The notes under the pieces: generated by a model | Seen by the model: only the letters and a program-made list of their open reading frames with translations | Databases searched by the model: none | What the model was told of the DNA's origin: nothing | Shown here: piece after piece, positions 4-45,376 of the stretch | Layout of the letters: each line of letters opens with the position of its first letter | Numbering within the stretch: position 1 is the first letter of the stretch | Position numbers and translations under genes: made by a program | DNA from: Actinomycetes bacterium | GTDB lineage: Bacteria > Actinomycetota > Acidimicrobiia > Acidimicrobiales > JAKAOS01 | Length of the DNA: 45,376 bases | NCBI GenBank assembly: GCA_021795215.1 | Contig: JAJYPS010000006.1 | Span: forward strand, 1 to 45,376 | Reading direction: 5' to 3'

Positions 4-1374
4 ATGAGGCTTCTGACTGCCGTTCGTGGCGACCGGGGAGCCGAAGCGGAGCCCTCCGAGGCCAGGTTCACTGCACGTGCAGTTGCCGGTGCCGCTTTGG
101 AGCAGGTGGGGGTGGCTGCGGGGCAGGGCGTGGCCGGGGTGGGGAACCTCGTGTTCACACTTGTTACGGCCCGGGTCCTGGCACCCCGGTCCTTCGCCCA
201 GATGGCTGCCTTCTCGGCGCTGTACCTGTTGTGGAACCTGCCCTCGACCAGCCTCAGCGCCACCGCGGCGCTCGATCCCACTTCGGTGCGCCGCTCCCGG
301 GTGCGCTTCGGCATGCTGGGCGCGGTGTTCGGCATGGCCATGATCGCAGTGTCGGGTTTCCTGGCACCGGTCCTGGGCCTGCCGGTGGGGCTCGTAGTGG
401 CACTTGCAGCGGCATCCCCCCTGGCGCCGGTGCTGGCGTTGGAGAGAGGCAGGCTGTATGGCCAGCAACGACACGGCCTGCTGGTCGGCAGCCTGGTGGC
501 GGAGCCGGTCGTGCGATTGACCCTCGGGAGCGTCGCCTTGGTCGAGCTGGGGGCTCTTGGAGGAGCAGTATCGGTGATCCTCGGCGGTGTCGCTGCTTTG
601 GAGGTGGCGACGCTGCGCAGCCGGTCGCCGAAGCGATCTCGGCGGCCTCTCGGGGTCCGGCCCTGGGAGTGGGCCGCCAAGGCTCGGGCTGGTGTCGGTG
701 GGGCGTTCCTCCCCGAGGGTTCCTTCTCGAGAAGTCGCTCGGGACGGCAGAGGCACCCCGAAGTGACATCGGTCGCAACGTCAGCCGGTGGCATGTGGGC
801 GGCTCTGGCGTTCATGCTGGTCGGCCTGTTGCAGTACTTGAGCCTCCTGGCGGCCAACCGGCTGTTGAGCGCTTCGGGTGCGGGTGAGTTCGCGGCGGTG
901 TCCACGGTAGGGGGGATCGCCGCGTTCGCCACTGCGACCGTGCCGCTCGTGCTCCTTCCGGCGGCATCCCGGGGACAACGGCATGCTCTCTCGGCGGCTG
1001 TGTCCGTGACGGCGATCGCAGGACTGGTCGCCACCGCCGTCGCATACGCCGCCCCAGGGCTTCTGATCACAGAACTGATGGGCGCAAGGTACGGCTCGGC
1101 TGCGCCGTTGGTCGGGCCGTACGTCGTGGCGATGAGCCTGTTCGGGCTGGTGAGGGTGCTGGTGTCCCACGACTGCGCTACGGGGAGATCCCGCTCGGTC
1201 ACGCTGCTGCTGATCGTGGCGGCCGCCGTCCAGACGGCGGTACTCCTGGCCGAGCATACGGCCGGTGGCATGGCCATGGCGACCCTGGTCACGATGGCAG
1301 CTCTCACCATCGGACAGGGGCTGGTCGCAGTGGGGCGTGCTTTCAGAGGGCGGCGTGCGCAGCACAGGCTCTGA
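4..1374 (+). CDS. Multi-spanning membrane protein, polysaccharide flippase/exporter-like
   Basis: 456-aa ORF with repeated hydrophobic segments (VGNLVFTLVTARVLAPRSFAQMAAFSALYLLWN...); adjacent to a glycosyltransferase. The start lies at the window edge and may be further upstream. Confidence 0.55.
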   Translation: MRLLTAVRGDRGAEAEPSEARFTARAVAGAALEQVGVAAGQGVAGVGNLVFTLVTARVLAPRSFAQMAAFSALYLLWNLPSTSLSATAALDPTSVRRSRVRFGMLGAVFGMAMIAVSGFLAPVLGLPVGLVVALAAASPLAPVLALERGRLYGQQRHGLLVGSLVAEPVVRLTLGSVALVELGALGGAVSVILGGVAALEVATLRSRSPKRSRRPLGVRPWEWAAKARAGVGGAFLPEGSFSRSRSGRQRHPEVTSVATSAGGMWAALAFMLVGLLQYLSLLAANRLLSASGAGEFAAVSTVGGIAAFATATVPLVLLPAASRGQRHALSAAVSVTAIAGLVATAVAYAAPGLLITELMGARYGSAAPLVGPYVVAMSLFGLVRVLVSHDCATGRSRSVTLLLIVAAAVQTAVLLAEHTAGGMAMATLVTMAALTIGQGLVAVGRAFRGRRAQHRL

Positions 1375-1410
1375 TGTTCGGCCTCTGACGTTCGGCCTCT
1401 GACGATCGGC
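1367..1410 (+). repeat. 14-bp tandem repeat (about 3 copies) spanning the stop codon of the flippase-like gene
   Basis: GGCTCTGATGTTC / GGCCTCTGACGTTC / GGCCTCTGACGATC; TGA at 1372, 1386 and 1400. Confidence 0.8.
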
Positions 1411-1514
1411 AAAGATCACGTGCCGGCATGCACGTCGGTACTGGGCGCCAGCAGCGGCGTGGGCAGGTGCCGAGACCGACATCGAGGCGGAGCTCCCCGT
1501 CGAGAAGCACCTGC

Positions 1515-2729
1515 TCAATGCGGAAAGCGGGCTGCTCCGGTGCGCGACGCGAGGGCGAGGAGATGTCCTTCGATGCTTGCGACGGTGGTCCGGATGTCTC
1601 GCTCATCCACGGCATGCTGCCTTGCGGCGGCGGACATCCGCTCGATCTCGGAGGCACCCACCTCCGAGACTCTGGCGATCGCAGCGGCGAGCTCGGCGGA
1701 GGAGCCCGGCGACACGACGCAGAACGGGTAGCGCTTGGCCCACTGGCCGAGGGCCTCGACGCAACCCCCGGTACGAGTCGTGACGACGGGGCAGCCGCAT
1801 GCCATCGCCTCCACCAGTACCAGGCCGAAAGGCTCGTCCCACACGCTCGGAACGACCACCAGGTCCGCCGCCCAGTAAGCAGTTCTGGGATCGCTCACCC
1901 AGTCCCGATGAGTGACTCGTGTCTCCCCGTCGATTGACGCCCTGTCGATGGCGGCTCGGGTCTGGACGGACTCGACTCTTCCCACCAGCAGGAGCGTCGT
2001 GTCGAGCTCCGGCCGACCACGGTTCAGACATTCCCATGCGTCGATCAGGACGGGGGCTCCCTTCTCGTCGTTCAGCCTCCCCACCATGGCCACCATGAAC
2101 GTCCCTTCCTGAACGCCCAGACGATCTCTGCACAGCTTCCTCTGGTCGCCCTCTGCGGGAACGAAATACTCCACGTCGACTCCGTTGAGGACGACGTTGT
2201 CACCGTCCGTAGGGAAGCCGACCCTCTCCCAACTGCTCATATTCGCTCGCGAAACGAATATCGCTCCGTCGATGGAGAGCAGCCTGCGCAACAATCGGAC
2301 GGCGGTCGGAGGCATGGGCAACCGGCCACCGAAGGGCAGAGGAAGGTGCATGTGCCAACACACCGGTTGGCGAAAGACTCTTCCGAGCAGGAATGCGAAC
2401 GCAAAGTTCTCCCAACGGCCGTTGTGGTGCATATAGGCGATCCTGCGTCCCGACCGTCGTTTCCCGTGAGCGGTCGAGACAAGCTGTCTCCAAGCGTCGA
2501 AGCGGCGCAGGTATAGCATCTCCGACGAGAACTCCAGCCAGTTCTGTTCCATCTGGCCGGGACGGCAGAAGGCGACGTGGACGGTGTGTCCTCGCCTCGC
2601 CAGCTCCCTGCAGATCTGCAGCTGCGCCCGCTCCGTGCCGGCCGACTTCGCCATGCTCGGAACCAACGTGATCAGTTCCACGTATGCTTCCGACAGGGCA
2701 GGAGGGGGATGCGGAGCTCGGTTCCCCAA
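1515..2729 (-). CDS. Glycosyltransferase family 4 (GT-B fold)
   Basis: VAMVGRLNDEKGAPVLIDAWECL, VVVPSVWDEPFGLVLVEAMACGCPVVTTRTGG (EX7E-type GT4 motif). Confidence 0.9.
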   Translation of the reverse strand: MGNRAPHPPPALSEAYVELITLVPSMAKSAGTERAQLQICRELARRGHTVHVAFCRPGQMEQNWLEFSSEMLYLRRFDAWRQLVSTAHGKRRSGRRIAYMHHNGRWENFAFAFLLGRVFRQPVCWHMHLPLPFGGRLPMPPTAVRLLRRLLSIDGAIFVSRANMSSWERVGFPTDGDNVVLNGVDVEYFVPAEGDQRKLCRDRLGVQEGTFMVAMVGRLNDEKGAPVLIDAWECLNRGRPELDTTLLLVGRVESVQTRAAIDRASIDGETRVTHRDWVSDPRTAYWAADLVVVPSVWDEPFGLVLVEAMACGCPVVTTRTGGCVEALGQWAKRYPFCVVSPGSSAELAAAIARVSEVGASEIERMSAAARQHAVDERDIRTTVASIEGHLLALASRTGAARFPH

Positions 2730-10568: not shown

Positions 10569-11408
10569 ATGAGGTCCGGCTTTGCCACCATCGTAGGCAG
10601 GCCGAATGCCGGGAAGTCCACCCTCCTCAACCGGATACTCGGCCGCAAGGTGTCCATCGTGTCGGACAAGCCGAACACCACCCGCTCGGCGGTGCGGGGG
10701 ATACTGCACCATCCCGACGGTCAGGTCGTGTTCGTCGACACGCCCGGCCTCCACAAGCCCCGCAGCCTGCTCGGCAAGCACCTGAACCTCGCGGCGCGGT
10801 CGTCGCTGTCGGACGTCGACGTGGCGATAATGGTTGTCGACGCGGCAGCCGACGTAGGCAGGGGAGACGCGGTGGTCGCCTCGTCCGTCCCTGCCGATGC
10901 TGCGGTTGTGCTGAACAAGGCGGACACGGTCGACCCAGGGCAGCTGGAAGCGCAGAGAAGCCGTCTGAGGGCGCTCGGACTTACGGGTCCGCTGATGGCG
11001 GTGTCCGCTAGGACCGGCGAGGGCGTGGACACCCTGGTCCAATCGGTCCTGGCCAGGATGCCCGACGGTCCGCCCTACTACCCCGAGCACATGGTGAGCG
11101 ACGTGGGGGAGGGCGAGTGGGTTGCCGAGCTGGTGCGTGAGCAGCTGCTGGCGGTGGTCGACGACGAGCTGCCGCACGCGATCGCGTGCCAGGTCACCGA
11201 GTGGGAGTGGCCGAGGGTTCGAGTCGAGATACTGGTCGAGCGGGACAGCCAGAAGGGCATCGTCATAGGTTCGCGAGGGCAGGTGCTGAAAGCGGTCGGC
11301 ACCGCTGTCAGGCAACAGATGGACCCAGGTGCTTACCTGGAGCTCTTCGTCCGCGTGGACAAGGACTGGCAGAGGCGGTCGTCGGCTCTGGCGCGGCTCG
11401 GTCTCTGA
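10569..11408 (+). CDS. era: GTPase Era
   Basis: GFATIVGRPNAGKSTLLNRILGRKVSIVSDKPNTTR, FVDTPGLHKPR, NKADTVD; KH domain VIGSRGQVLKAVGTAVRQQMDPG. Confidence 0.96.
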   Translation: MRSGFATIVGRPNAGKSTLLNRILGRKVSIVSDKPNTTRSAVRGILHHPDGQVVFVDTPGLHKPRSLLGKHLNLAARSSLSDVDVAIMVVDAAADVGRGDAVVASSVPADAAVVLNKADTVDPGQLEAQRSRLRALGLTGPLMAVSARTGEGVDTLVQSVLARMPDGPPYYPEHMVSDVGEGEWVAELVREQLLAVVDDELPHAIACQVTEWEWPRVRVEILVERDSQKGIVIGSRGQVLKAVGTAVRQQMDPGAYLELFVRVDKDWQRRSSALARLGL

Positions 11409-11472
11409 AGCTGCTCGGTCTCTGAAGCTGCTCGGTCTCTGAAGCTGCTCGGTCGCTGAAGCTGCTCGGTCT
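11400..11472 (+). repeat. 17-bp tandem repeat (GGTCTCTGAAGCTGCTC, 4 copies plus partial) spanning the era stop codon
   Basis: Direct reading of 11400-11472; TGA at 11406 (era stop), 11423, 11440 and 11457. Confidence 0.9.
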
Positions 11473-11879: not shown

Positions 11880-14645
11880 TCAGGCTGCGATCTTGAACCA
11901 CACCCGCTTGCCGGTGGGTAGCCGCTCCACCCCCCACTCGCGGGCCAGATGCTTCACCAGCCACAGCCCCCGGCCCCCTTCGCTCTCCTCCCCAGGTGAG
12001 ACCACGCGGGGCAGGCGGTGCGAGCTGTCGCTGACCGCGCAGTAGAGCGTTCCTGGCGCCTCCTTGATTATCACCTCTATGCGGCTCTCGGCGTGCCTCA
12101 CTGCATTCGCTGCAATCTCGCTGAGCAGTAGAAGGACATCGTCCGCCACGTCCGTCGATCCCCACTCGGACAGCAGGGCGGAGGCCCAACGGCGGGCCAA
12201 TGAGGGACTGTTGAGTGCGGCAGGAAAGAACGCGGCGCCGGACCGTTCCGCAGGGACCTCGGAAGCGGCCCGCTCCAACGAGAGCATCACCATGCGGCGC
12301 CTGGCGGACCCCCCCTCCGCCTCCGCTGCGGCCATCAGCCCGTCGCTGAAGAGGGCAGACTGTGCCTGGGTCCGGGCCACCAGTCGGCGGAAGTGAGACA
12401 TGGCCCGGTCCTGCTGTCCCGCGCCGTCGGAGAGCAGCCCCTCGGTGAAGACCACCATCCGCGTATCGGGACGCAGGTAGAGCACAGTGTCTACAAACCG
12501 GCACTCCATAAAGGCTGGCATCGATCTCGCCAGATGGACGTACTGCGCCCTGCCGCCGGAGGCGAGCAACGGCGGCAGGTGAGCGGCAGAGGACATGGTG
12601 ACCTCTCCACGCCGCACGTCCCACACGCCCACCAGAAATCGGCAGGCAAGCGAGTCGGTCGTCTCCGGGGGGCACCCCCGTGCCTCATCGGCCAGGCGCC
12701 CGAGGGCGGCAGCCGGACTTTCCCCTGCCAGCAGGTCCGCCTTCAGTGCTCTTGCAACGCCGATGGCGGGATGCGGCGGCGGGGCCGTGTTCAGGGCCTC
12801 ACCGACGAAGAATGCCACTTTCCCCGATGCGCCGGCCGTCGGCTCCGCATCCCCTCCGGATGGCACAGCCGTTCCTGATGGCACAGCGGTTCCGGATGGC
12901 ACAGCGGTTCCGGATGGCACAGCCGTTCCTGATGGCACAGCCGTTCCTGATGGCACAGTGAAGGCTTCACCCCACACCGGCCGCCGCGGGTCGTGCTCGC
13001 CTGCATGGCGCAGGACGAGCCTGAGGCCATCCGAGATCCCTATGTTCTTGTCGCCGGTGCCCCCGACGAGCTCGGGAACGGGATGCGAAGTGGGGGCCTC
13101 CCCGCCGATCGGAGGGCATGGTGCGGTCCACCCTCCGAGGCGATCGAGCGTGACGCCGAGACGCCGGGCTATCTCCTGTACCCAGCACGTCTCGAGGGGC
13201 ACCTGTCCCGTCGGAACGGCCGGCCGTGCCGAGAGCGGGATATCCCCGCCCGCGAGGTCACCGCGTAGTTCGACGGTGCCGAATACGACTTCGGCCGGCA
13301 CGCCTTCCTCATCGGGCGACGTGTCGCCTGTCTCTCCGTGTGGCTCTCGGTCCCTTGCCACCCCGACTGCGTGGCGACCGACCAGAGGGCGGTCCGGGCG
13401 AGACTGGAACCAGATGCACCCGAGGGGCCCGGCACCGCCCGGGACGGTCACCACATCCCACTCCTCCGGTGTGATGGCGATCGACGCCGCCATCCGCTCA
13501 GGTGCCGCCGCCACGAGCGGATCGGGCAGGCGCCCGGCCGCTACGCTTCGGCCAAGATCGCAGCTCTCGATGTCGAGCGGGACATGACACGACACGACAG
13601 GGAGGTCTCGCGACCCGTAGACCGCACTCTGCGGCTCTCCCCGGAGTGGTCGAGGCACGACGACGCACCACTCGGCCACGCATTCGACCGTTGTCTCGGC
13701 GACCATCCGGGCAGCAGCGTGCCGATCCGAGGCGCGTGCCAACTTGGTGGCCAGCACGGCGAGAGCGGCCGAGCGGCGATTGGAGGTCCTGTAGTCGGCT
13801 GCCGCCTCCACCTGGGTGGTGATGTCCTGAAGGGCCATCACCACCCCCTGGCGTCCTCCCTCCAGGCGGGCCGGGGAGAGCGTCACTTCGGCCAGCCCCC
13901 CCGGCTTTCCTGGAAGCTTCGCAGTCGACACCACGCCCGATCCGTGAGCGACGACCCGCTCTACCAGCTGCGACAGGTCCGGAGGCAGCAGTCCCGGCAG
14001 GAGGGAGCCAGGAGAGTGTCGCTGGTCCCCCGTGCTGCCCTGGGCCGGGTCCGGCGGCAGCAGCAGCATGTCGGCTGCACGGCGGTTCCAAGTGGAGATC
14101 GCTCCTTCGGAGTCGGCCAAGAGGACGCCGACGGCCGCCTGGTCCATCCCGCTGCTCGACCCGCCGGGGTCATCGCCGTGCGTGGTAGCCCTGTTCGGCG
14201 GTCGCACACCGGAGCTTGCCGGCGGCTCGGCGCCTCGCAGCCTCCTGTTGCGAGCTTCCGAGGCCGCCACCGCGCGGGCGACAGCTTCCACCAGTCTCTC
14301 CGCATCTCCGGCTGCTCCCGCCGCGGCCGGGGCTTCGAGGGCCTCCACCCCCACTCCCCAGAACGGACCCAGCGCCAAGCGGCGGCAGACGTGCTCCAGG
14401 GAGTCCCGGTCGACCAGCAGGATCACCGATGCCGCCGGTGTGGTGCGCTGGACCGCCTCGGCAACCCCAGTGACGCCGGGGCCAGAGCCGGACACGACCA
14501 CCACGTCGGGATCGCACAGCCGCTGCACGTCGGACAGCCGGGCGGGCAGAGGGAACGTCATCACTTCGTGGCCGCTTCGTAGGCACCACTGTTCGATCGG
14601 CTGGCTCAACGCCTGGTTCAGGTCCAGGAGCACGACTTGCGCCAT
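11880..14645 (-). CDS. SpoIIE/RsbU-type PP2C phosphatase with degenerate N-terminal receiver, PAS region and C-terminal HATPase (anti-sigma kinase-like)
   Basis: PAS-like MDQAAVGVLLADSEGAISTWNRRAADML; PP2C region GVARALKADLLAGESPAAALGRLADEARG...LPPLLASGGRAQYVHLARSMPAF; HATPase DDVLLLLSEIAANAVRHAESRIEVII...EGGRGLWLVKHLAREWGVE. Confidence 0.85.
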   Translation of the reverse strand: MAQVVLLDLNQALSQPIEQWCLRSGHEVMTFPLPARLSDVQRLCDPDVVVVSGSGPGVTGVAEAVQRTTPAASVILLVDRDSLEHVCRRLALGPFWGVGVEALEAPAAAGAAGDAERLVEAVARAVAASEARNRRLRGAEPPASSGVRPPNRATTHGDDPGGSSSGMDQAAVGVLLADSEGAISTWNRRAADMLLLPPDPAQGSTGDQRHSPGSLLPGLLPPDLSQLVERVVAHGSGVVSTAKLPGKPGGLAEVTLSPARLEGGRQGVVMALQDITTQVEAAADYRTSNRRSAALAVLATKLARASDRHAAARMVAETTVECVAEWCVVVPRPLRGEPQSAVYGSRDLPVVSCHVPLDIESCDLGRSVAAGRLPDPLVAAAPERMAASIAITPEEWDVVTVPGGAGPLGCIWFQSRPDRPLVGRHAVGVARDREPHGETGDTSPDEEGVPAEVVFGTVELRGDLAGGDIPLSARPAVPTGQVPLETCWVQEIARRLGVTLDRLGGWTAPCPPIGGEAPTSHPVPELVGGTGDKNIGISDGLRLVLRHAGEHDPRRPVWGEAFTVPSGTAVPSGTAVPSGTAVPSGTAVPSGTAVPSGGDAEPTAGASGKVAFFVGEALNTAPPPHPAIGVARALKADLLAGESPAAALGRLADEARGCPPETTDSLACRFLVGVWDVRRGEVTMSSAAHLPPLLASGGRAQYVHLARSMPAFMECRFVDTVLYLRPDTRMVVFTEGLLSDGAGQQDRAMSHFRRLVARTQAQSALFSDGLMAAAEAEGGSARRRMVMLSLERAASEVPAERSGAAFFPAALNSPSLARRWASALLSEWGSTDVADDVLLLLSEIAANAVRHAESRIEVIIKEAPGTLYCAVSDSSHRLPRVVSPGEESEGGRGLWLVKHLAREWGVERLPTGKRVWFKIAA
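12859..12960 (-). repeat. In-frame 18-bp tandem repeat encoding (VPSGTA)5 inside the phosphatase gene
   Basis: Five 18-bp units plus a partial on the + strand, GATGGCACAGC[C/G]GTTCC[T/G]. Confidence 0.95.
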
Positions 14646-34280: not shown

Positions 34281-35288
34281 TCAGTGTGTGCCCAGCGTGG
34301 CCCTCAGACTGGCACGAAGCGATGAGGTTGTGGCTAGCACCGCCGTCGGTTCGTATCCACAGTGGGCCATGCAGTTGGCACAGCGGGGGTCCTTGCCCCG
34401 GCCGTAGCTCTCCCAGTCGGTGGTCTCCAGCAGTTCGGCGTAGGTGGACGCATATCCGTCGGACATCAGGTAGCACGGCTTCTGCCATCCCAGCACCGAA
34501 TAGCTGGGGATGCCCCACGCCGTGCAGCCGAAGTCGGCCTTTCCCTCCAAGAAGTCCAGGAAGAGGGGGGTGTGATTGAGCTTCCAACGTCTCCGCCTGC
34601 CATCGGCGAAGACCTTCGAGAACAGCTCCCGCGTCTCGGTCACCCCAAGGAAGTGCTCCTGGTCCGGCGCCCTCTCGTAGGCGTAGGCGGGAGACAGCAT
34701 CATCGCGTCCACCTGGAGCTCATTGTTCAGGTAGTCCAGCACTCCTATGACACTCTGGGGCGAGTCGTTCGTGAAGAAAGTGGAGTTGGTCGTCACCCGG
34801 AAGCCCGCCTTCTTGGCGGAGCGTATCGCCGCGGTTGCCTTGTCGAACACCCCTTCGCGGTCGACCGCCGCGTCGTGCCGCTCGGCCAAACCGTCGATGT
34901 GGACGGTCCAGGCGAAGTACGGCGACGGCCGGAACTGCTCCATCCGCCTCTCCAGGAGGACTCCGTTCGTGCACAGGTAGACGAACTTGCGCCGCTTGAC
35001 CAGCTCGTCCACGATTCGCCCTATCTCCGGGTGCAGCAGCGGCTCACCGCCCGCTATCGACACCATCGGGGCCCCGCTCTCCTCGATCGCCCCGACCGCC
35101 TCCTCCACCGAGAGCCGCTTCCGAAGGATCTCCGTCGGCTGGCGCACCTTGCCGCATCCCGGGCAGTGGAGATTGCAGCTGTACAGCGGCTCCAGCTCCA
35201 CGAGTAGGGGGAAGCGCTTCTGACCTTTCAGCTTTTGGCGCGCCAGGTAGGAGGCCATCGTCAGGTTCTGGCGCCAGGGAATGGACAT
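34281..35288 (-). CDS. hpnH: Adenosyl-hopene transferase HpnH (radical SAM)
   Basis: YLARQKLKGQKRFPLLVELEPLYSCNLHCPGCGKVRQPTEILRKRLSVEEAVGAIEESGAPMVSIAGGEPLLHPEIGRIVDELVKRRKFVYLCTNGVLL (CxxxCxxC-type cluster). Confidence 0.95.
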   Translation of the reverse strand: MSIPWRQNLTMASYLARQKLKGQKRFPLLVELEPLYSCNLHCPGCGKVRQPTEILRKRLSVEEAVGAIEESGAPMVSIAGGEPLLHPEIGRIVDELVKRRKFVYLCTNGVLLERRMEQFRPSPYFAWTVHIDGLAERHDAAVDREGVFDKATAAIRSAKKAGFRVTTNSTFFTNDSPQSVIGVLDYLNNELQVDAMMLSPAYAYERAPDQEHFLGVTETRELFSKVFADGRRRRWKLNHTPLFLDFLEGKADFGCTAWGIPSYSVLGWQKPCYLMSDGYASTYAELLETTDWESYGRGKDPRCANCMAHCGYEPTAVLATTSSLRASLRATLGTH

Positions 35289-35315
35289 GGGCAGCTCTCC
35301 TGTTCAATCGTCTCT

Positions 35316-35349
<34 letters not shown>

Positions 35350-35373
35350 GCCGTGTCGCCGGTCATCGTACGA

Positions 35374-36033
35374 TCAGTACCCAATCCCCTCCGAGAGGTG
35401 GAGCGGAGGACGGCCCAACGCCCGGGCCGTCCTCCGTACAGCGGCAAGACCCGCCAGACCGGACCTGGGCAGACCCGCCAGACCCGTCGAGGGAGCGTCC
35501 GAAACGGCTCTCACCGCGGCCATCGGCCGCGCCCCCAGCGCCTCGAACAGGTAGCCCGTCTCGGTGTCCACCACGTCCCCGCCTGAGGCCGCCAGTTCGG
35601 CTCGCCGCGTACCCCAAACCGGCCGTCGCACCGTTTCCACGGCGCCCAGTTCCGCTCGGATGCCGCTGCGACGGAGAGCGTCGACGACGACCGACGTGAG
35701 TTGGTCGTCCGGCGACAGGGCCGTCTCCCTACCTTCTACCGACACCCTTTCGGCCACCACCACCTGCCCGGGCTTTGCCGACCGACGAAGAGCACCACAT
35801 ACGCCCAGAACGATGACCGGTCGCCCTGGAGCGAGCCCGGCGGCCAGACGAGCACCGGCGCTTCGTGCTTTTTCCGGCCCCATGCCGCAGCGCCTGATCG
35901 GTGCTCCCGGACGGCCGAGCCCGATCGCAAGGCGCTCGATCCAAATGGCGGTCACCAGGACCGGCACCGCCGGGTCACCCCGCCGTCCCGACGCCCACGC
36001 CGAGCGGCCCGGCAGCGGCTCGTCAATCCGCAC
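35374..36033 (-). CDS. hpnG: Hopanoid-associated nucleoside phosphorylase HpnG
   Basis: GMGPEKARSAGARLAAGLAPGRPVIVLGVCGALRRSAKPGQVVVAERV...VDTETGYLFEALGARPMAAVRAVSDAP; overlaps the shc stop; GTG start. Confidence 0.88.
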   Translation of the reverse strand: MRIDEPLPGRSAWASGRRGDPAVPVLVTAIWIERLAIGLGRPGAPIRRCGMGPEKARSAGARLAAGLAPGRPVIVLGVCGALRRSAKPGQVVVAERVSVEGRETALSPDDQLTSVVVDALRRSGIRAELGAVETVRRPVWGTRRAELAASGGDVVDTETGYLFEALGARPMAAVRAVSDAPSTGLAGLPRSGLAGLAAVRRTARALGRPPLHLSEGIGY

Positions 36034-38107
36034 TAAACACGCCGTTCTGACGGCTGTCGGAGTTGTGCCGGTCCTCGGGACGGTCCAGGCCCTGCCAGCT
36101 CCGCCACCGCCCCAGAGCCATCACCGGGAACACCAGCCTGTAAAGGTGGTAGTTGATGTGGAAGTCGCCAGGAAAGCCCGTCCCGGTGAAGTAGGGCTCG
36201 TCCCAGCTGCCATCGTCGTCCTGAGTCGCCGCCAGGTACTCCACTCCTCGGCGGATCGCTTTGCGGAACTGGGCCTGGGCGATGTCCACTTCGCCATCGC
36301 CGGACCCGCCGTGGGCCCGGCGAGCCTCACCCGGCGGCGTGGCCAGGCACAGCAGTGCCAAGAGCGCCCAGGAGGTCTGTGACGGCGTCGAAGCCCCGCG
36401 ACCACGCCATGCCGGGTCGGTGTACGACCTCATGTCCTCGCCCCATCCTCCGTCGGCGTTCTGGTGCTCGCACAGGAACCTCCCGGCAGCCGCCAGACGA
36501 GGGTCGGACGGCTCTGCTCCCGCGGCCACCAGGGCAGGAACAGCTGCGCCGGTTCCGTAGACGTAGTTTGCTCCCCAGCGACCGAACCAGGCCCCGTCGT
36601 CCTCCTGCTCGCGCCAGAGCCAGGCGACACCGCGGGACAGGGCGTCCGGGTGGGTTCCGGTCGCCGCCAGCATCTCCACCGCATGCGCCGTGACGTCCGC
36701 ACTCGGAGGATCGGTCACCTCGCCGAAGTCGCAGACGGGAAGCTTCTCGACCAGCCTGCTGGTGTTCTCGGCGTCGAACGCAGCCCATCCGCCGTCCCTG
36801 CACTGCATCCCTACGACCCACTCGACGGCCCTGAGCACCGCCGCCCGGGTACGCAAGGGGTCCGATCCCTCGCAGCGGCGGAGCGCCAGCACCACCAGCG
36901 CAGTGTCGTCGACGTCGGGATAGTTGTCGTTCTCGAACTCGAAAGCCCATCCGCCCGGCTCGAGGTGCGGCCGCCGAACGGCCCAGTCCCCCTTCTTGGT
37001 CACTTCCTGACCGACGAGCCAGTCTGCAGCCGATACGAGAGCCGGCTCGGACGGGTCGGCCCCGGCGTCGGCGAGAGCCAGCACGGCCAGGGCGGTGTCC
37101 CACACGGGCGACTGGCAGGCTTCGAGGCGCACCTGGTCGCCGTCGGTGACGCTGAAGGCTTCGAGACCACCTACAGCCGAAGCCAGCACCGGGTGCTCCA
37201 TCGAGTACCCGAGCAGGCTCAGGGCGAGCATCGAGTACACCCACGGGGGTTGGATGCCGCCCCAGCTGCCGTCGGGCTCCTGGCGCTCGACGATCCACGC
37301 CTCGGCCCGGCGGAAGGCGAGCCTGCGCAGCGGCTTGAACGGAAGCCGCTCGTACGCGGCCAGCGCCTTTCCCAGCAGGTGGAACATGCCCGCAGTGCTG
37401 AACAGGGCAGGCGGCTCCTCCGGGGGAAGGCCGCCACGCAGCTCCTCGATGGAGAAGGGGACCGGTCTGACCGGGCGGTGGGCGGCCACGACGGTGAGGG
37501 GGACCATGGTCTGGCGGGCCCAGCACGCGAAGTCGTAGATGTTGCAGGGGAACCACGAGGGCAGCAGGATCAGTTCGGCCGGCAGGGCCGGCAGGGCGTC
37601 CCACCGCCACAGGCCGAACAGAGCCAGCCAGAACCGGGTGAACAGCCTGGTTCTCTCGACCCCACCCTGGTCCCGGACCCACGCTGCTGCCCTGCGCATC
37701 GCTTCCAGATCCGAGGAGTGCCCGGCCAGTCGCAGCGCGACGTACGCCTCCACGGTCACCGAGAGATCCGGCGGCCCCCCGAAGAAGCTGGACCAGGTCC
37801 CGTCCGCGTCCTGCTTGGCAGCGATCCACCTGGCGACCGCCGCACGGCGCTGCGGGTCGACTATCCCGAGGAAGTGGCGCAGGAGCATGTCCTCGGCGTC
37901 CATGCTGACGTTCGTCTCCAGCTCCCCCTTCCACCATCCGAGCGGATGCTGGAGCTCGGTCAGACGGGCTACGGCGCGGGACAGCGTGCCTGCGGACAGA
38001 GCGCCTGCGGTCCGCGAGGCTAGCGATCCTGCGTCGGGGACACTCTGTGCGCCTTTGAGATCCGTCGACCCGTCGCCGCCCACCTGGGACGCCGGGTCAG
38101 AATGCAC
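36023..38107 (-). CDS. shc: Squalene-hopene cyclase
   Basis: Multiple QW motifs (QEPDGSWGG, QNADGGWGED, QEDDGAWFGRWG), DVDDTALVVLALRR (DXDD motif), LLPSWFPCNIYDFACWARQTMVPL. Start by overlap with the upstream gene. Confidence 0.96.
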   Translation of the reverse strand: MHSDPASQVGGDGSTDLKGAQSVPDAGSLASRTAGALSAGTLSRAVARLTELQHPLGWWKGELETNVSMDAEDMLLRHFLGIVDPQRRAAVARWIAAKQDADGTWSSFFGGPPDLSVTVEAYVALRLAGHSSDLEAMRRAAAWVRDQGGVERTRLFTRFWLALFGLWRWDALPALPAELILLPSWFPCNIYDFACWARQTMVPLTVVAAHRPVRPVPFSIEELRGGLPPEEPPALFSTAGMFHLLGKALAAYERLPFKPLRRLAFRRAEAWIVERQEPDGSWGGIQPPWVYSMLALSLLGYSMEHPVLASAVGGLEAFSVTDGDQVRLEACQSPVWDTALAVLALADAGADPSEPALVSAADWLVGQEVTKKGDWAVRRPHLEPGGWAFEFENDNYPDVDDTALVVLALRRCEGSDPLRTRAAVLRAVEWVVGMQCRDGGWAAFDAENTSRLVEKLPVCDFGEVTDPPSADVTAHAVEMLAATGTHPDALSRGVAWLWREQEDDGAWFGRWGANYVYGTGAAVPALVAAGAEPSDPRLAAAGRFLCEHQNADGGWGEDMRSYTDPAWRGRGASTPSQTSWALLALLCLATPPGEARRAHGGSGDGEVDIAQAQFRKAIRRGVEYLAATQDDDGSWDEPYFTGTGFPGDFHINYHLYRLVFPVMALGRWRSWQGLDRPEDRHNSDSRQNGVFSAD

Positions 38108-39113
38108 GCTGGACCACGAACTCCGCCATGTCGGCCAGCTGCCGGCGGGATGGAGCGGCGAGCGGTGCCGACTCCAGTGCCTGCAGTGCCGACTGCTTGT
38201 GCAGGCGCGCCGCCTCTTCGCAGTACGCCCGACCGCCTGCCTGCTCCACGACGAGAGCCGCCCGAGCGAGGCCGTCCTCGGGGCACGGGCGCTGTCCGAG
38301 CAGGTGCCGCAGCTCCTCGGCATGGTGGCCGCCCGCCGCCATCGCGGCGGCGACGGGAAGGCTGGCCTTGCACTGGCGCAGGTCGCTCCAGGCCGGTTTC
38401 CCGGTGCGGGAAGGGTCGCCCCAGATGCCGAGCACGTCGTCGGTCGCCTGGAATGCCAGGCCCAGCTCCACTCCGAACTCCTCCAGCGCCGAGAGCTGTT
38501 CGGCAGTGGCGCCGGCCAGTTCGGCTCCGATGGAGGCGGCGGCGCCCAGAAGGGCCCCTGTCTTGCCCCTCTCCATCTCCTCGCAGGCAGCGACGCTGAT
38601 CTCGGCCAGCCCTTCGCCGGCCATGTCGTTGGCCTGCCCGACGATCATCGACGAAGTGGCGCGGGCCAGCCGGCTCGCGGCCGCACATCGGTTGGGCACC
38701 TGGCTGTCCAGTAGGACCTGCTGCGCCAGTGACGCCAGGGCGTCCCCCACGATGACCGCCTGGCCGACTCCCCACACCGCCCACACGGTCGGGCGATGGC
38801 GGCGCCGGGAGTCGCCGTCGATTATGTCGTCGTGGATCAGCGAGAAGTTGTGCACCAGCTCCACGGCGACGGCGCCTGGAACCCCTGTCTCGGCGGCAGC
38901 TCCCGCGGCCGTGGCCGACAGAAGGGCGAGAGCGCTCCGAACCCCCTTGCCGCCGTTCGCCGACTGGGGGACACCACCTGCGTCGGTCCATCCGAAATGG
39001 TAGAAAGCCGGCCTGCTCAGCTCGCTGCCGAGCCTGCCCACGGCTGCACGCAACTCTCCTTCGCACATCGCCGCCGCCTTCTCCAGGATGGGGGGTGCCA
39101 CGGCAGCCTCCAT
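38097..39113 (-). CDS. Polyprenyl synthetase (farnesyl/geranylgeranyl diphosphate synthase-like), hopanoid-linked
   Basis: VELVHNFSLIHDDIIDGDSRRRHRPTVW (first DDxxD) and AFQATDDVLGIWGDPSRTGKPAWSDL (second); ATG at 39113 overlaps the hpnE stop. Confidence 0.93.
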   Translation of the reverse strand: MEAAVAPPILEKAAAMCEGELRAAVGRLGSELSRPAFYHFGWTDAGGVPQSANGGKGVRSALALLSATAAGAAAETGVPGAVAVELVHNFSLIHDDIIDGDSRRRHRPTVWAVWGVGQAVIVGDALASLAQQVLLDSQVPNRCAAASRLARATSSMIVGQANDMAGEGLAEISVAACEEMERGKTGALLGAAASIGAELAGATAEQLSALEEFGVELGLAFQATDDVLGIWGDPSRTGKPAWSDLRQCKASLPVAAAMAAGGHHAEELRHLLGQRPCPEDGLARAALVVEQAGGRAYCEEAARLHKQSALQALESAPLAAPSRRQLADMAEFVVQRAF

Positions 39114-40492
39114 CAGAAGGCCCGGGTCGATTGGTCGGCCAGCTCCGCGTTCCCTTTCGACGACAGGTCGGCCACGACACAGCTCGCTGCCGCATGGCCG
39201 CTCAGGACAGCACCCTCCATCGTGGCCGGCCAACCGGTGGCAGTCCATGCGCCCGAGAGGTAAAGACCGGGAGCGGACGTCCGCGGTCCCGGCCGGAGCG
39301 CCCCGGAACCTGCAGAAGCCCTGAAGGTCGCGAAGCGCTCTCGGGTCACTACGGCATCGGTCACTCTCGCCTGGCTCACCTTTCCGAAGATCTCTCCCAA
39401 TGCAGCCAGCACGGTCGACACCACCGTCTGGGGCCTGCCGCCCAACCACTCCTCGGCTCCCGACAGCGACACGCCGATGCACTGCCCCTCTGCGAGGCCC
39501 ACTGCGCGGCTCCTGTCGAATACCCACTGCAACGGCGAATGCACCACGGCGGCCATCTCCACGTCCGTTACCCGCCTGTCGAACACCACCTGGACGTTCA
39601 CTATCGGAGACGTCCCCAACGAGTCGAGCGACGGCGGCACCGTTGCGGGCGGAACCAACGCGGCCAGGCTCCAGTGGGGCACGGACATCACCACGGCAGC
39701 GGAGGCGATGCGTCCGCCGGGGCCGTCCACGAGCCACCTCCGGTCCTTGCTTCCCGCCGCAGGGCGGCCCTGCACCGAGGACACCTCCCAACCGGAACGG
39801 ACCTCCACGCCAGCCGTCGACAGGGCACTCTGCGCTGCCCCTCCGTGCAACTCCGCCAGTGGGACCCCAGACCAGCCGATGTCGCCGGCGTCGACGCTGT
39901 CCAGCAGTCCGGTGCGGACCACTCGGGTGGCGTTCTGGAGCGAGCACTCTTCGGCGGAGATGTTGCAGGTGGCGCGGAGCAGGAGGTCCCACACCGCCTC
40001 TCTCGCTTCCCGAGACTGGCACTGGCTGTCCATCCAGGCACCGAAGGCCACCGCGTCGAGAGCGTGGTCGTCCGGATCGAGCCGGCGGATTGCTCGGAAG
40101 GCGTTCGCCACGGACAGCCGGTCCTGCACCGTCAGGGGGGAGTAGCGGGCCAGCGAGCCGACCAGGTGCAGAGGAGCCGGTCCGAGGGAGCGTCGCAGCA
40201 GAGCCGGGCGGCCACCTGGCCGAAGGACCTGGATCTCCAGCCTGTCCTGCAGCTCGACCTTCTTGCCGACGCCCAACCGGTCCAGCAGTCGTCGGTACGA
40301 CGTGCAGGACCGCAGGAAGACGTGCTGGCCGTTGTCGAACGTCAGACCGTTGCGCCGGAACGAGTAGGTGGCACCCCCCAGGCTCCCCTTGCGCTCCAGC
40401 AGCACCACCGACAGACCGGCATCGGCAAGGTCCAACGCTGCTGTGATCCCGGCCAGCCCTCCGCCCACCACCACCGCGTCAGTGCTGTTCAA
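39113..40492 (-). CDS. hpnE: Hydroxysqualene dehydroxylase / squalene-associated FAD-dependent desaturase HpnE
   Basis: DAVVVGGGLAGITAALDLADAGLSVVLLERKGSLGGATYSFRRNGLTFDNGQHVFLRSCTSYRRLLDRLG; C-terminal GLYLSGAWTATGWPATMEGAVLSGHAAA. Probable TTG start overlapping the hpnD stop. Confidence 0.94.
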   Translation of the reverse strand: MNSTDAVVVGGGLAGITAALDLADAGLSVVLLERKGSLGGATYSFRRNGLTFDNGQHVFLRSCTSYRRLLDRLGVGKKVELQDRLEIQVLRPGGRPALLRRSLGPAPLHLVGSLARYSPLTVQDRLSVANAFRAIRRLDPDDHALDAVAFGAWMDSQCQSREAREAVWDLLLRATCNISAEECSLQNATRVVRTGLLDSVDAGDIGWSGVPLAELHGGAAQSALSTAGVEVRSGWEVSSVQGRPAAGSKDRRWLVDGPGGRIASAAVVMSVPHWSLAALVPPATVPPSLDSLGTSPIVNVQVVFDRRVTDVEMAAVVHSPLQWVFDRSRAVGLAEGQCIGVSLSGAEEWLGGRPQTVVSTVLAALGEIFGKVSQARVTDAVVTRERFATFRASAGSGALRPGPRTSAPGLYLSGAWTATGWPATMEGAVLSGHAAASCVVADLSSKGNAELADQSTRAF

Positions 40493-41331
40493 GGCGCCCT
40501 GCCTGCTATCGCCAGCGCGGCGACCCAAGCCTTTTCCGCCCGCGAGAGGGATACCCTCTCCGACAGGACGGACTCTGGTCGCCTTTCGATCGATCCGAGC
40601 AGACGGCGGTAGATGCCGGCCATAGCTGCGGTGCATGCGCGGCTCCGCCAGTCCAGCAGCGACAGCAGGCCAAGTCCTTCGGTATAGAAGCTTCGAGCCC
40701 GGCTGGCCACCAGGAGGATCACCCCCACTACGGCGTCGGGCGGCCCGGTCGCGTCCGGCTCCGCCCCGAATCGCTCCAGGTCGCGTGCCGGAAGGTACAC
40801 CCTGCCCATCTGCTCGCGGTCCTCCCGGATGTCCCGCAGGATGTTCGTCAGCTGCAGCGCCACTCCGAGTTGATCTGCCAGCCGGGGGGCCCTCTCACCC
40901 GCAGCGGCACCGAACACGCCGAGCGACAGCCGTCCGATGGAGCCCGCCACCAGCCGGCAGTACGTCACCAGGTCGTCGAAGGTGTCGTAACCAGATCCGT
41001 GGCAGTCCCACTCGCAACCCTGGATCAGCTCGTCGAACGCCTCGAGAGGGATGGCGAAGCGGGAAGCGGAGTCGGCGATGGCCACAAGGACCGGGTCCGA
41101 GCCGTCTCCCGGCAGCAGCTTCAAGTCCTGGCGCACCTTGGCCAGTCGTTCCAGCTTGGACTCGCTGCTGCCAGGCCCGTCGCCGATGTCGTCGATACGG
41201 CGGGCCAGTGCGTAGACGGCGGACAGTGCCCGCCTTCTCACCGGGTCCAGCAGGCGGATGCCGTAGGAGAAGTTGCGAGCCTGGGATGCCGTGAGCTGCT
41301 CGCAATAGCGGTAAGCCTCCTCGGAGTTCAT
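40489..41331 (-). CDS. hpnD: Presqualene diphosphate synthase HpnD
   Basis: ARNFSYGIRLLDPVRRRALSAVYALARRIDDIGDG; GVALQLTNILRDIREDREQMGRVYLPARDLERFG. Confidence 0.94.
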   Translation of the reverse strand: MNSEEAYRYCEQLTASQARNFSYGIRLLDPVRRRALSAVYALARRIDDIGDGPGSSESKLERLAKVRQDLKLLPGDGSDPVLVAIADSASRFAIPLEAFDELIQGCEWDCHGSGYDTFDDLVTYCRLVAGSIGRLSLGVFGAAAGERAPRLADQLGVALQLTNILRDIREDREQMGRVYLPARDLERFGAEPDATGPPDAVVGVILLVASRARSFYTEGLGLLSLLDWRSRACTAAMAGIYRRLLGSIERRPESVLSERVSLSRAEKAWVAALAIAGRAP

Positions 41332-42458
41332 TCCGCGGTCGGGCTCCGGAGCATGGGCGAAGGTGCGGAGGCGACCAGCAGGCGGCCCATGTGCCAGGCA
41401 ACTCGCCCGCGTCTGGGTCGGCAGTCCCGACCGAGCACGTCGTGACCGGCCGCCTCCACCGAGTCCAAAGCCGCCTCGCCGCCGGCCACGAACCCCGCCA
41501 CTGCCAGGCGGCCCCATCCCGACAGCATCCGCAGCAGGGGCAGCCCCTCGCCGAGCATGCATCTCGCCCGCCTGGCCTCTATGCACACCACTGCGCGCAG
41601 GGCCAGGCCCGCCCTATCGGAGGCCAGATCGGCCTCCGCGCAGCCCACCCGGTCCATGTCCTCCTCAGGCAGGTACACCCGGCCGTCCCGGAAGTCCTCC
41701 CCGACGTCCTGGAGGTGCTCGATCACCTGCAGCGCGCTGCAGATCGAGTCGGACGCCCGGAGCATCGCCGCCGAGTCCTCGCCGACCGGGTGACCGTCCG
41801 TAGTGTCCCCGCACCCCCCACGCTCCGCGGCTGGTCCGACCGTCGGTGTCGGCTCGCCAGCCCCGGTCACCTCGGTGCCCCCGGTAGGCTCGCCAGCCCC
41901 GGTCGGCTCGGCGTCCGGGAAGCCTCGGCCCCGTTGCGCCCGGGTCGATGCGTCTGCGACCCGAGCCGGCGGGAATGCCCCGAACAGAGCCAGCACCAGT
42001 CTGCCGAGCGGGTTCGCAGAAAGGTCGCAGTAGCCCAACAGCTCGGCGAAGGTGCGGTATCGGTGGACTGTCTGATCCTGGCGGTTGGCCTGTACCAGCT
42101 TGCGCAGCAGCGCCGGGTCGAAGCCGGGACGTCGCAGAAGCGGCTGCACCGGCACTACGGCGGGGTGGGCCGACGAACCCTTCTCCGCCAGCGTGATCTC
42201 GGCTTCCAGGTGGTCCAGCAGTTCGAGACGGTCGCCGCCCCACTCGTCGCCGATCTGGTCGACGAACCTGGCAAAGCCGTAGAGTGCCATCAGGTCGTTC
42301 CGCAGGTGGCGGGGAAGCACCCTCAATGCCACCGGGAAGTTCTCGTTGCGAGCGCGGGAGGCGAGCTGCGTGCTCAGATCGAGGTCCGAACGCGCCTCGG
42401 AAGGACCGAGCGGATCGGTTCCGCCGACGCTCCCGATGGTCTGCACGCTGGTGCTCAT
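41328..42458 (-). CDS. hpnC: Squalene synthase-family HpnC with low-complexity internal insertion
   Basis: RARNENFPVALRVLPRHLRNDLMALYGFARFVDQIGDEWGGDR; SICSALQVIEHLQDVGEDFRDGRVYLPEEDMDRVG. Confidence 0.93.
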   Translation of the reverse strand: MSTSVQTIGSVGGTDPLGPSEARSDLDLSTQLASRARNENFPVALRVLPRHLRNDLMALYGFARFVDQIGDEWGGDRLELLDHLEAEITLAEKGSSAHPAVVPVQPLLRRPGFDPALLRKLVQANRQDQTVHRYRTFAELLGYCDLSANPLGRLVLALFGAFPPARVADASTRAQRGRGFPDAEPTGAGEPTGGTEVTGAGEPTPTVGPAAERGGCGDTTDGHPVGEDSAAMLRASDSICSALQVIEHLQDVGEDFRDGRVYLPEEDMDRVGCAEADLASDRAGLALRAVVCIEARRARCMLGEGLPLLRMLSGWGRLAVAGFVAGGEAALDSVEAAGHDVLGRDCRPRRGRVAWHMGRLLVASAPSPMLRSPTAE

Positions 42459-42714
42459 CCGTCGCTTCTCCCTCGTGACCTGGCCGATGCCGGCTGGCTC
42501 AACCCTAAACGGCTCGCGGCCCTCCGCCCCCAGCCCCAGGGGCAGCGGCCCCATTGCCCCGCGCCCGCGCCGCCCGGGGGGAGACCCGCACAGGCGACAC
42601 CCGACGGGTCGATCCAGGGCCGGCGTACGACGCTGCGGCGCCCCCGTTCCGCCGGGAGGAGTATGTTTCCCAGGTGGTGACCGCTGCCAGGAGCCTGACC
42701 ATGAGATCGACGCC

Positions 42715-43506
42715 GTGCTGACGGCGCTCGCGATCGTGACTGCGGTCACGGCAGTCCTCGCGGTGGTGCTGGGAGTCCTGTTGGCCAAGACGCACTCCGA
42801 CCTGGCCTCCGAGCGACGGAGCCGAGCTCAGGCAGAAGAGGAGAAAGCGGCAGTCCGGGCCGAGACGGAGGCGGCGGAGCGAGCCCTCTCCTCTGCTTCG
42901 ACTCGACTGATCGAGACCCAGACCGCCTTGGAGGCCGAGACCCTCAGAGCGGACCAGGCGGAGATCCCATTGCACGAGGCGGAGCGCAGGGCCGCTCTCG
43001 CCACTCAGGCGATGGAGGCATGGGGAGAGGCGGCGCTGGCGCTCGAACGTCTGGGCAGGCATCGTGCGTGGTCCGTGCTGGCGGGGCCGTCCCTGGCGCC
43101 TCCCTGGTCCGAAGGAGAGGCGGAGGCTCCCGGCATGACCCTGCTGCACGGGATCGAGGTAGAGATCGAGAGCATCAGGGAGGAGGTCGGCACACCGGGC
43201 CAGCTGGAGGTGGTGCTGGGCGAGAAGCTGGACCTGACGCCTGCTGCAGCGGCGCTCGGCCTGGTGGCGATCCGAGAGCTTCTGCGAAGGCTTGCTCCCG
43301 GTTGCGAGGAGCTGCAGGTGCATGTCGACGGCTCGCCCGTGCCGCCCGAGATCGCCGTTCAGGCCGTCGGGGTCCGCTCCCTGGGGGACGTCGCCGGCAC
43401 TGCGTCGGACGTGATGGCGGCCGTATCCTCCCAGGGTTGGCCTTCCCTGGTCGCCATCGAGGACCCCGAGACCGGCCGGGTGGGCATCGAGCTTTCGTTG
43501 GGCTGA
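42715..43506 (+). CDS. Membrane-anchored coiled-coil hypothetical protein
   Basis: N-terminal TM (LTALAIVTAVTAVLAVVLGVLLA) then a charged coiled-coil (ASERRSRAQAEEEKAAVRAETEAAERAL...). Confidence 0.7.
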   Translation: MLTALAIVTAVTAVLAVVLGVLLAKTHSDLASERRSRAQAEEEKAAVRAETEAAERALSSASTRLIETQTALEAETLRADQAEIPLHEAERRAALATQAMEAWGEAALALERLGRHRAWSVLAGPSLAPPWSEGEAEAPGMTLLHGIEVEIESIREEVGTPGQLEVVLGEKLDLTPAAAALGLVAIRELLRRLAPGCEELQVHVDGSPVPPEIAVQAVGVRSLGDVAGTASDVMAAVSSQGWPSLVAIEDPETGRVGIELSLG

Positions 43507-43510
43507 GCCT

Positions 43511-43605
43511 GCGTGGCCGCACAGGGACGGGGGGCGGCTTGGAGAGGAGCGACCCGGATCGGCGTGGCCGCACAGGGACGGGGGGCGGCTTGGAGAGGAG
43601 CGACC
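43511..43605 (+). repeat. Near-perfect direct duplication, period 51 bp, 44-nt exact core
   Basis: GCGTGGCCGCACAGGGACGGGGGGCGGCTTGGAGAGGAGCGACC at 43511 and again at 43562. Confidence 0.92.
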
Positions 43606-43724
43606 GGGGCGGACGTCCGCCGAGAGCGCGCATACGGTTCGGACGTGGCACTACCGGGTAACCCGCCTCGGCAAGACGGGGACGTGACGAGCGACCGGGG
43701 GAGTGCCCTGGGACGTGGAAGGGA

Positions 43725-45376
43725 ATGCCTGTGACCAGCGAAGCGTGGAGTAGGGGTTGGCCTGTGCTGCGACAGCTGACGGGCGGGGATCGCTACGGGA
43801 GGGGTAGTGCAGCCCAGTCCCGGCGCTCCAGGCGGTTGTCCCCGCGTACGGCGGCTGCGACGAGAGTGGTCAAGTCGGTGTGCCCCTACTGCGCAGTCGG
43901 CTGCGGGCAGGACGTGTACGTGCAAGACGGCAAGGTGACCCAGATCGAAGGGGACGCGGACAGCCCGATCTCGCGGGGAAGGCTCTGTCCCAAGGGCTCC
44001 GCCAGCCTCCAGCTGACCACCGGTGAGGCCCGCGGCCGCCACGTCCTCTACCGGCGCCCGGGTGGCACCGATTGGGAGCGGCTCGAGCTGGACAAGGCAA
44101 TGGCGATGGTGGCGGACCGGGTGGTGAAGACGAGGAGGGACACCTGGGAGTGGGAGTCCGAGGGGGCGAGGGTCCGCCGGACGCTCGGGATAGCGAGCCT
44201 GGGGGGGGCGACACTGGACAACGAGGAGAACTATCTCCTGAAGAAGCTGTTCACCGCCCTGGGCGCCATCCAGATCGAGAACCAGGCCCGAATATGACAC
44301 TCCTCCACCGTGCCCAGTTTGGGCACATCGTTTGGTAGGGGGGGAGCGACCAGCTTCCAGCAGGACCTGGCGAACTCGGACTGCATCCTGATCGAAGGGT
44401 CCAACATGGCCGAGTGCCATCCGGTCGGCTTCCAATGGGTGATGGAGGCCAAGGCGCGGGGGGCGAAGGTGATACACGTGGACCCTCGGTTCACGAGGAC
44501 CAGCGCGGTAGCCGACATCCACGTGCCGCTGCGGGCGGGGTCCGACATCGCATTCCTCGGCGGCCTGGTGAACTACGTGATCCAACGGGAAGCGTTCTTC
44601 CGCGAGTACGTGGTGTCCTACACGAACGCTCCGGTGATCCTCCGAGAGGACTTCGGCGACACGGAGGATCTGGACGGCGTGTTCTCGGGACTGGACACCG
44701 AGAAGGGAACGTACGACACCGAGACCTGGCAGTACGAGGGAACGGAGGTGTCTTCCGCAGCCGGCCAACGTGAGGAGCAGGCGACGGACCGCAGGGAAGC
44801 TGCCGGCTCCGGCGGCGACGCCGACGAAGGGGGCCATCGAGGGCAGGTACGACACTCGGCCCGGGGCGAGTCGCACGGGTCGGGCGGTGCGGCGATCAGC
44901 GGCGAAGGGGAGCGGGACGAGACCCTTTCGCATCCCCGGTGCGTGTTCCAGGTTTTGAAGCGGCATTTCGCCCGGTACACGCCGGAGATGGTGGAGCAGA
45001 TATGCGGCGTCTCGCAGCAGCAGTTCCGTGAGGTGGCCGAGGCGCTCGTCGCGAACTCGGGACGGGAGCGGACGTCCGCCTTCTGTTATGCGGTGGGATG
45101 GACTCAGCACACGGTGGGCGTGCAGTACATCAGAACTGCTGCGATCCTGCAGCTTCTCCTGGGCAACATCGGCCGTCCCGGGGGCGGCATAATGGCGTTG
45201 CGGGGACACGCCAGCATTCAGGGTTCGACCGACATCCCGACGCTGTTCAACCTGCTCCCGGGATATATTCCGATGCCTCATGCACAGCTGCATCGGGACC
45301 TCGACTCGCTGGTGTCGGACGACGCCCCCGAGAAGGGGTTCTGGGCCGGGATGAAGGCGTACACGGTGAGCCTTCT
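43725..45376 (+). CDS. Formate dehydrogenase alpha subunit, selenocysteine-containing; UGA (44295-44297) read as Sec; truncated at the window edge
   Basis: VVKSVCPYCAVGCGQDVYVQDGKVTQIEGDADSPISRGRLCPKGSASLQL ... GAIQIENQARI-U-HSSTVPSLGTSFGRGGATSFQQDLANSDCILIEGSNMAECHPVGFQWVMEAKARGAKVIHVDPRFTRTSAVADIHVPLRAGSDIAFLGGLVNYVI ... the same frame stays open to 45376. Confidence 0.94.
44298..44345 (+). promoter_or_regulatory. Bacterial SECIS element downstream of the Sec UGA
   Basis: Perfect hairpin GTGCCCA-GTT-TGGGCAC at 44310-44326, 12 nt after the UGA; possible outer helix CTCCTCC (from 44300) with GGGGGAG (around 44338-44346). Confidence 0.85.

Follow-up and report, generated by a model that had tools for sequence, protein, structure and literature searches.

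Sequence evidence for a UGA-encoded selenocysteine in a formate dehydrogenase of the Acidimicrobiales

We analysed a window of 45,376 nt, which is one whole contig (C118) of a 2.6 Mb draft genome (152 contigs, 92.7% complete) from a host of the order Acidimicrobiales. The window ends inside fdhA, a gene that almost certainly encodes a selenocysteine (Sec)-containing Mo/W-bis-MGD formate dehydrogenase (FDH) alpha subunit, in which an in-frame UGA is decoded as Sec by means of a downstream hairpin (Table 1). The biology is well known and the case is an ordinary new example of a Sec-FDH. The annotation is corrected by this reading, since the stop called by the ORF finder would be a sense codon, and without this correction the FDH would be annotated as two pieces or as a pseudogene. 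The analysis also gives a clean comparative set, made up of 87 Sec genes and a single Cys clade nested among them; in this set the SECIS shows covariation at wobble positions and is lost after the Sec-to-Cys change.

Table 1. Positions of the features discussed, in the window unless another contig is named
Feature	Position	Strand	Remark
fdhA, formate dehydrogenase alpha subunit, N-terminal 550 codons	43725..45374	+	truncated where the contig ends; position of the start codon approximate
Predicted Sec-encoding UGA codon, residue 191	44295..44297	+	aligned to the Sec/Cys of solved FDHs
bSECIS apical hairpin, 7 bp, loop GUU at 44317-44319	44310..44326	+	perfect pairing; conserved in homologues
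Full-length match to Rfam SECIS_3 (RF01989)	44292..44350	+	22.7 bits, E 0.0055, model 1-59 of 59
selD of the host, locus L015 (G000:C147)	538-1594	-	UGA at 1540-1538

The fdhA gene, its UGA codon and the downstream hairpin

The ORF 43725-44297 ends in ...IENQARI-TGA. When this TGA is translated as Sec, a single frame of 550 residues runs to the end of the window, with one TGA and no other stop. Its product matches the NCBIfam profile NF041513 (formate_DH_Act) with 972.7 bits, over residues 9-550 and profile positions 3-530 of 1067. The coverage stops at position 530 because the contig ends inside the gene, and a score below the whole-protein cut-off of 1400 is expected, since the truncated gene can match no more than about half of the profile. 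The product has molybdopterin oxidoreductase domains (Pfam Molybdop_Fe4S4 and Molybdopterin) with FDH-type sequence, and it matches Sec-containing FDHs of known structure with an E value of 1e-124. Precisely, residue 191 (...QARI-U-HS...) aligns with the X (Sec) or C of the solved FDH chains, which puts the UGA in the Mo/W-ligating Sec/Cys column. An earlier note on this DNA had placed the TGA at the metal-ligating Sec/Cys position, in a frame otherwise open to the window end, and had proposed an alignment of this position with FDH homologues; translation and alignment agree with it on each point.

Some other features of the window were observed. A hydrophilic linker insert of the product, encoded at 44739-44897 (about residues 339-391), is also present in the actinobacterial homologue L050. 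Just upstream of fdhA, at 43511-43608, there is a 47-nt direct repeat in two copies that are 98% identical, with a spacing of 51 nt. Short tandem repeats are many in the window (20 entries, e.g. 11396-11472 and 12855-12958, with units mostly of 11-54 bp), and similar ones are visible on other contigs of the host genome. On the minus strand, at 34281-42788, Pfam matches outline an apparent hopanoid gene cluster, with a squalene-hopene cyclase, two squalene/phytoene synthases, a flavin amine-oxidoreductase-like protein and an HpnH-like radical SAM protein.

The hairpin, GUGCCCA-GUU-UGGGCAC, starts 12 nt after the UGA and has 7 perfect pairs. In E. coli fdhF the minimal SECIS hairpin is 17 nt long and begins 11 nt after the UGA. 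The 17-nt hairpin of the window folds alone at -10.5 kcal/mol, and a stretch of 46 nt folds at -16 kcal/mol with a z of -1.56. Considered alone, the hairpin carries little weight and exceeds chance only modestly: when synonymous recodings are weighted by codon usage, 7.2% of them form 7 bp as well. With about 7% of recodings matching it, we rejected the hairpin alone as proof of a SECIS.

We compared the hairpin with a published bSECIS model, which asks for a loop of 3-9 nt, an upper stem of 4-16 bp, 16-37 nt between the UGA and the loop, a minimum free energy (MFE) of -7.5 kcal/mol or lower, and a loop with a G among its first two nucleotides, after which G or U is common (PMC13188914). The loop of 3 nt, the stem of 7 bp and the distance of 19 nt from the UGA to the apical loop (44298-44316) all fall within these ranges, as do both folding energies, and the loop has its G, being GUU in the window and GUC or GUU in homologues. 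The covariance-model search proposed in the earlier note returned a SECIS_3 match that is full-length and in register, with a score that stays below the gathering score of 63. Hence the hairpin is a bSECIS in kind, though it is not filed under Rfam SECIS_3. The same note had described a hairpin of 7 bp with a 3-nt loop, 12 nt after the UGA, and its coordinates proved exact.

Conservation and covariation among homologues

We considered 80 named homologues, all from Actinomycetota and about 70-75% identical to the window FdhA. The codon at the Sec position is TGA in 76 of them and TGC in the other 4, and it is TGA in all 10 members of the order with the same FDH type. Together with the window gene, the 76 named homologues and the 10 order relatives make 87 UGA genes, and all 7 hairpin pairs are formed in every one of them (87/87), whereas the four TGC (Cys) homologues keep only 4-5 of the 7 pairs.

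The pair 3 of the stem links two third codon positions, one in a Val and one in a Gly codon, and changes at either are synonymous. Among the homologues it appears as C-G, U-A, U-G or G-C. In 32 distinct sequences 100% of the cells at this pair are paired, compared with 95.5% in shuffles; 12 cells are changed on both sides, compared with a shuffled mean of 3.4, and none of 500 shuffles was as high. When the partner was slid by 1-3 columns the pairing fell to 25-65%. Between the window (G-C) and its nearest order relative, G023 (C-G), both sides of pair 3 differ. Two-sided variation is limited to this one pair because codons fix most of the remaining pairs. On this comparison of sequences we take conservation and covariation to put the hairpin beyond chance and to be decisive across homologues. 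The earlier interpretation as a Sec UGA with a bSECIS is thus supported: where the homologues have UGA the hairpin shows covariation, and where they have a Cys codon its pairing has decayed.

In the FDH tree the Cys genes (L083, L086, L091 and L093) form one clade (99/92) nested inside the UGA genes, a pattern that would result from a change of Sec to Cys with subsequent loss of the SECIS. In this clade the Pro of VP[SG]LG is replaced by Ala (VAGLG) where the SECIS is lost, which suggests that the SECIS constrains the protein sequence. The window gene has a mixture of Actinomycetota around it, and the genes from the order do not form a single clade, so a horizontal transfer of the window fdhA is possible. 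Many members of the order (G002, G006, G008, G014, G018, G019, G026, G029 and G036) have an additional, distant FDH-like family whose genes contain an in-frame TGA.

Selenocysteine machinery of the host and alternative explanations

The earlier note had predicted that the host encodes selA, selB, selC and selD and that none of them lies in the window. No match to any of the four genes was found in the 45,376 nt, which bears out the second prediction, and the first one holds for selC and selD, which are on other contigs. The tRNA-Sec (selC), with a UCA anticodon, is at C97:3969-4064 and was found both by the Rfam model RF01852 (65.8 bits, over the cut-off) and by ARAGORN, as tRNA-SeC(tca). The selD gene scores 354.7 bits with TIGR00476 (cut-off 125) and has one in-frame TGA, in the context GSG-U-ACK. 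A hairpin of 7 bp with a GUC loop follows, the loop being 33 nt downstream of the UGA, and in most of the UGA-selD relatives that we checked the corresponding site also forms a hairpin, of different but complementary sequence (e.g. arms UGGCGCA/UGCGCCG, UGGCCCA/UGGGCCA and UGACGCA/UGCGUCG), L180 being an exception under the scan used. By its sequence the host selD is itself a predicted UGA/SECIS selenoprotein gene, and together with fdhA it would bring the selenoprotein genes of the host genome to at least two.

The prediction did not hold for selA and selB, which were not found in the host draft, either with curated families or with actinobacterial SelA and SelB sequences as queries. The best selB-like match in the host, on C87, was rejected as it is EF-Tu, and the pattern of matches suggests that those on C61, C112 and C139 are other translation GTPases. 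The absence of selC or selB from the genome had been named as a ground against the Sec reading, and this ground applies in part, through selB; we judged that the reading is not refuted.

Assembly gaps explain the missing genes adequately, because the assembly lacks the 3′ half of fdhA as well, because selA and selB are neighbours in relatives, and because the number of genomes of the order lacking selA is close to expectation. Indeed, the 3′ half of fdhA, encoding the C-terminal half of the protein, is nowhere in the host draft. The contig C90 starts with fdhB, at the point where fdhA would be expected to end, and an NrfD-like gene comes next. From the gene order in L050 this contig probably follows C118 in the genome. 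In relatives selA adjoins selB, therefore one gap can remove both. The two genes were not found on C90 directly downstream of the NrfD-like gene, where L050 has them. ArsA-like ATPases, which adjoin selAB in relatives, lie inside the host contig C122, where we saw no sel genes next to them, and a metallo-hydrolase probe for the selAB neighbourhood gave weak matches only; the position of selAB is therefore not conserved and the gap is not locatable by synteny. We then counted the 28 genomes of the order whose match to tRNA-Sec is strong, at 58 bits or above. We found selA in 25, in one as a fragment at a contig end, and its absence in three, namely the host (G000), G002 and G020, is to be compared with 2.1 expected from the stated completeness (P of at least 3 = 0.36). 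The drafts of all three have tRNA-Sec, selD and UGA-containing genes, and neither selA nor selB is in any of them. As the host and G002 are of the same family, the gap explanation calls for mild caution.

The same absences would also fit a host that has recently lost selA and selB, so that translation now ends at the UGA and fdhA is a remnant in decay, the more so as G002 lacks both genes too. We consider this very unlikely, given that the fdhA frame is otherwise intact, that the hairpin differs from that of G023 by a two-sided compensatory change, and that the host still has the tRNA-Sec, the UGA-containing selD and the hairpin in it, fdhB and the NrfD-like gene; moreover, three absences agree with the incompleteness of the drafts, and the 3′ half of fdhA is itself missing from the assembly. 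Equally improbable is that the host, and perhaps G002 and G020, are truly without SelA and SelB and decode the UGA as Sec by replacement factors. Slightly less credible still is a UGA read without SelA and SelB by an unfamiliar machinery, or read through with another amino acid, for which the absence of the two genes from the draft is the sole point; a standard tRNA-Sec and SelD are present, selA accompanies tRNA-Sec in nearly all the genomes counted above, and the gap explanation suffices. A sequencing or assembly error by which TGC or TGT, coding for Cys, became TGA is conceivable in a draft assembly but of negligible probability, as the same TGA occurs in 86 homologues of other genomes, each with a paired hairpin that is missing in Cys homologues, and as the downstream codons fit the SECIS form of the gene, not the Cys form.

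Returning to Sec decoding, the genome contains the UGA at the Sec position, the covarying hairpin, tRNA-Sec, SelD, and fdhB with the NrfD-like gene on C90. In the proposed mechanism SelA and SelD, the former presumably encoded with SelB in unassembled sequence, would make Sec-tRNA-Sec, carried by SelB; SelB would bind the hairpin and deliver Sec at the UGA, where the ribosome would go on instead of stopping. The selenium of the inserted Sec would ligate the active-site metal, probably Mo or W, which would oxidise formate to CO2.

Comparison with known systems

In Actinomycetospora chiangmaiensis the FDH1 cluster has the order fdhA1-fdhB1-fdhC1-permease-selA-selB, with a UGA in fdhA, and formate removal was experimentally selenium-dependent (PMC7176365). 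The window system has in common with it the UGA in fdhA, the bSECIS and the genes of fdhB and a gamma subunit, and it differs in its lineage, in that its cluster, as assembled, is without selA and selB, and in being known from its sequence alone.

The Sec-FDH clusters of Streptomyces, Actinomadura and Pseudonocardiaceae (among L017-L096) encode a protein about 70-75% identical, with the UGA at the same position and the same 7-bp hairpin with a GUC or GUU loop. There, selD, selC, selB and selA are often close downstream of fdhA, whereas selC and selD of the host are on other contigs, and selD uses Cys where that of the host uses UGA.

Corynebacterium aurimucosum has a UGA-containing fdnG clustered with the genes for Sec synthesis and incorporation, selABD and selC (PMC2830990). 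It resembles the window system, by description rather than by sequence, as an actinobacterial FDH with an internal UGA and Sec machinery, and differs in genus and in the clustering of its sel genes with fdnG.

In the literature searched we found no paper on a Sec-FDH in Acidimicrobiia. FdhA and SelD, the two proteins for which the host has UGA-containing genes, are the two most widespread bacterial selenoproteins (PMC13188914; PMC5029168). As for the solved Sec-FDHs (e.g. PDB 9qm0, 6sdr and 1kqf), the linker insert of the window FdhA is missing in the best-matching chains, and the protein family and the Sec position are the same.
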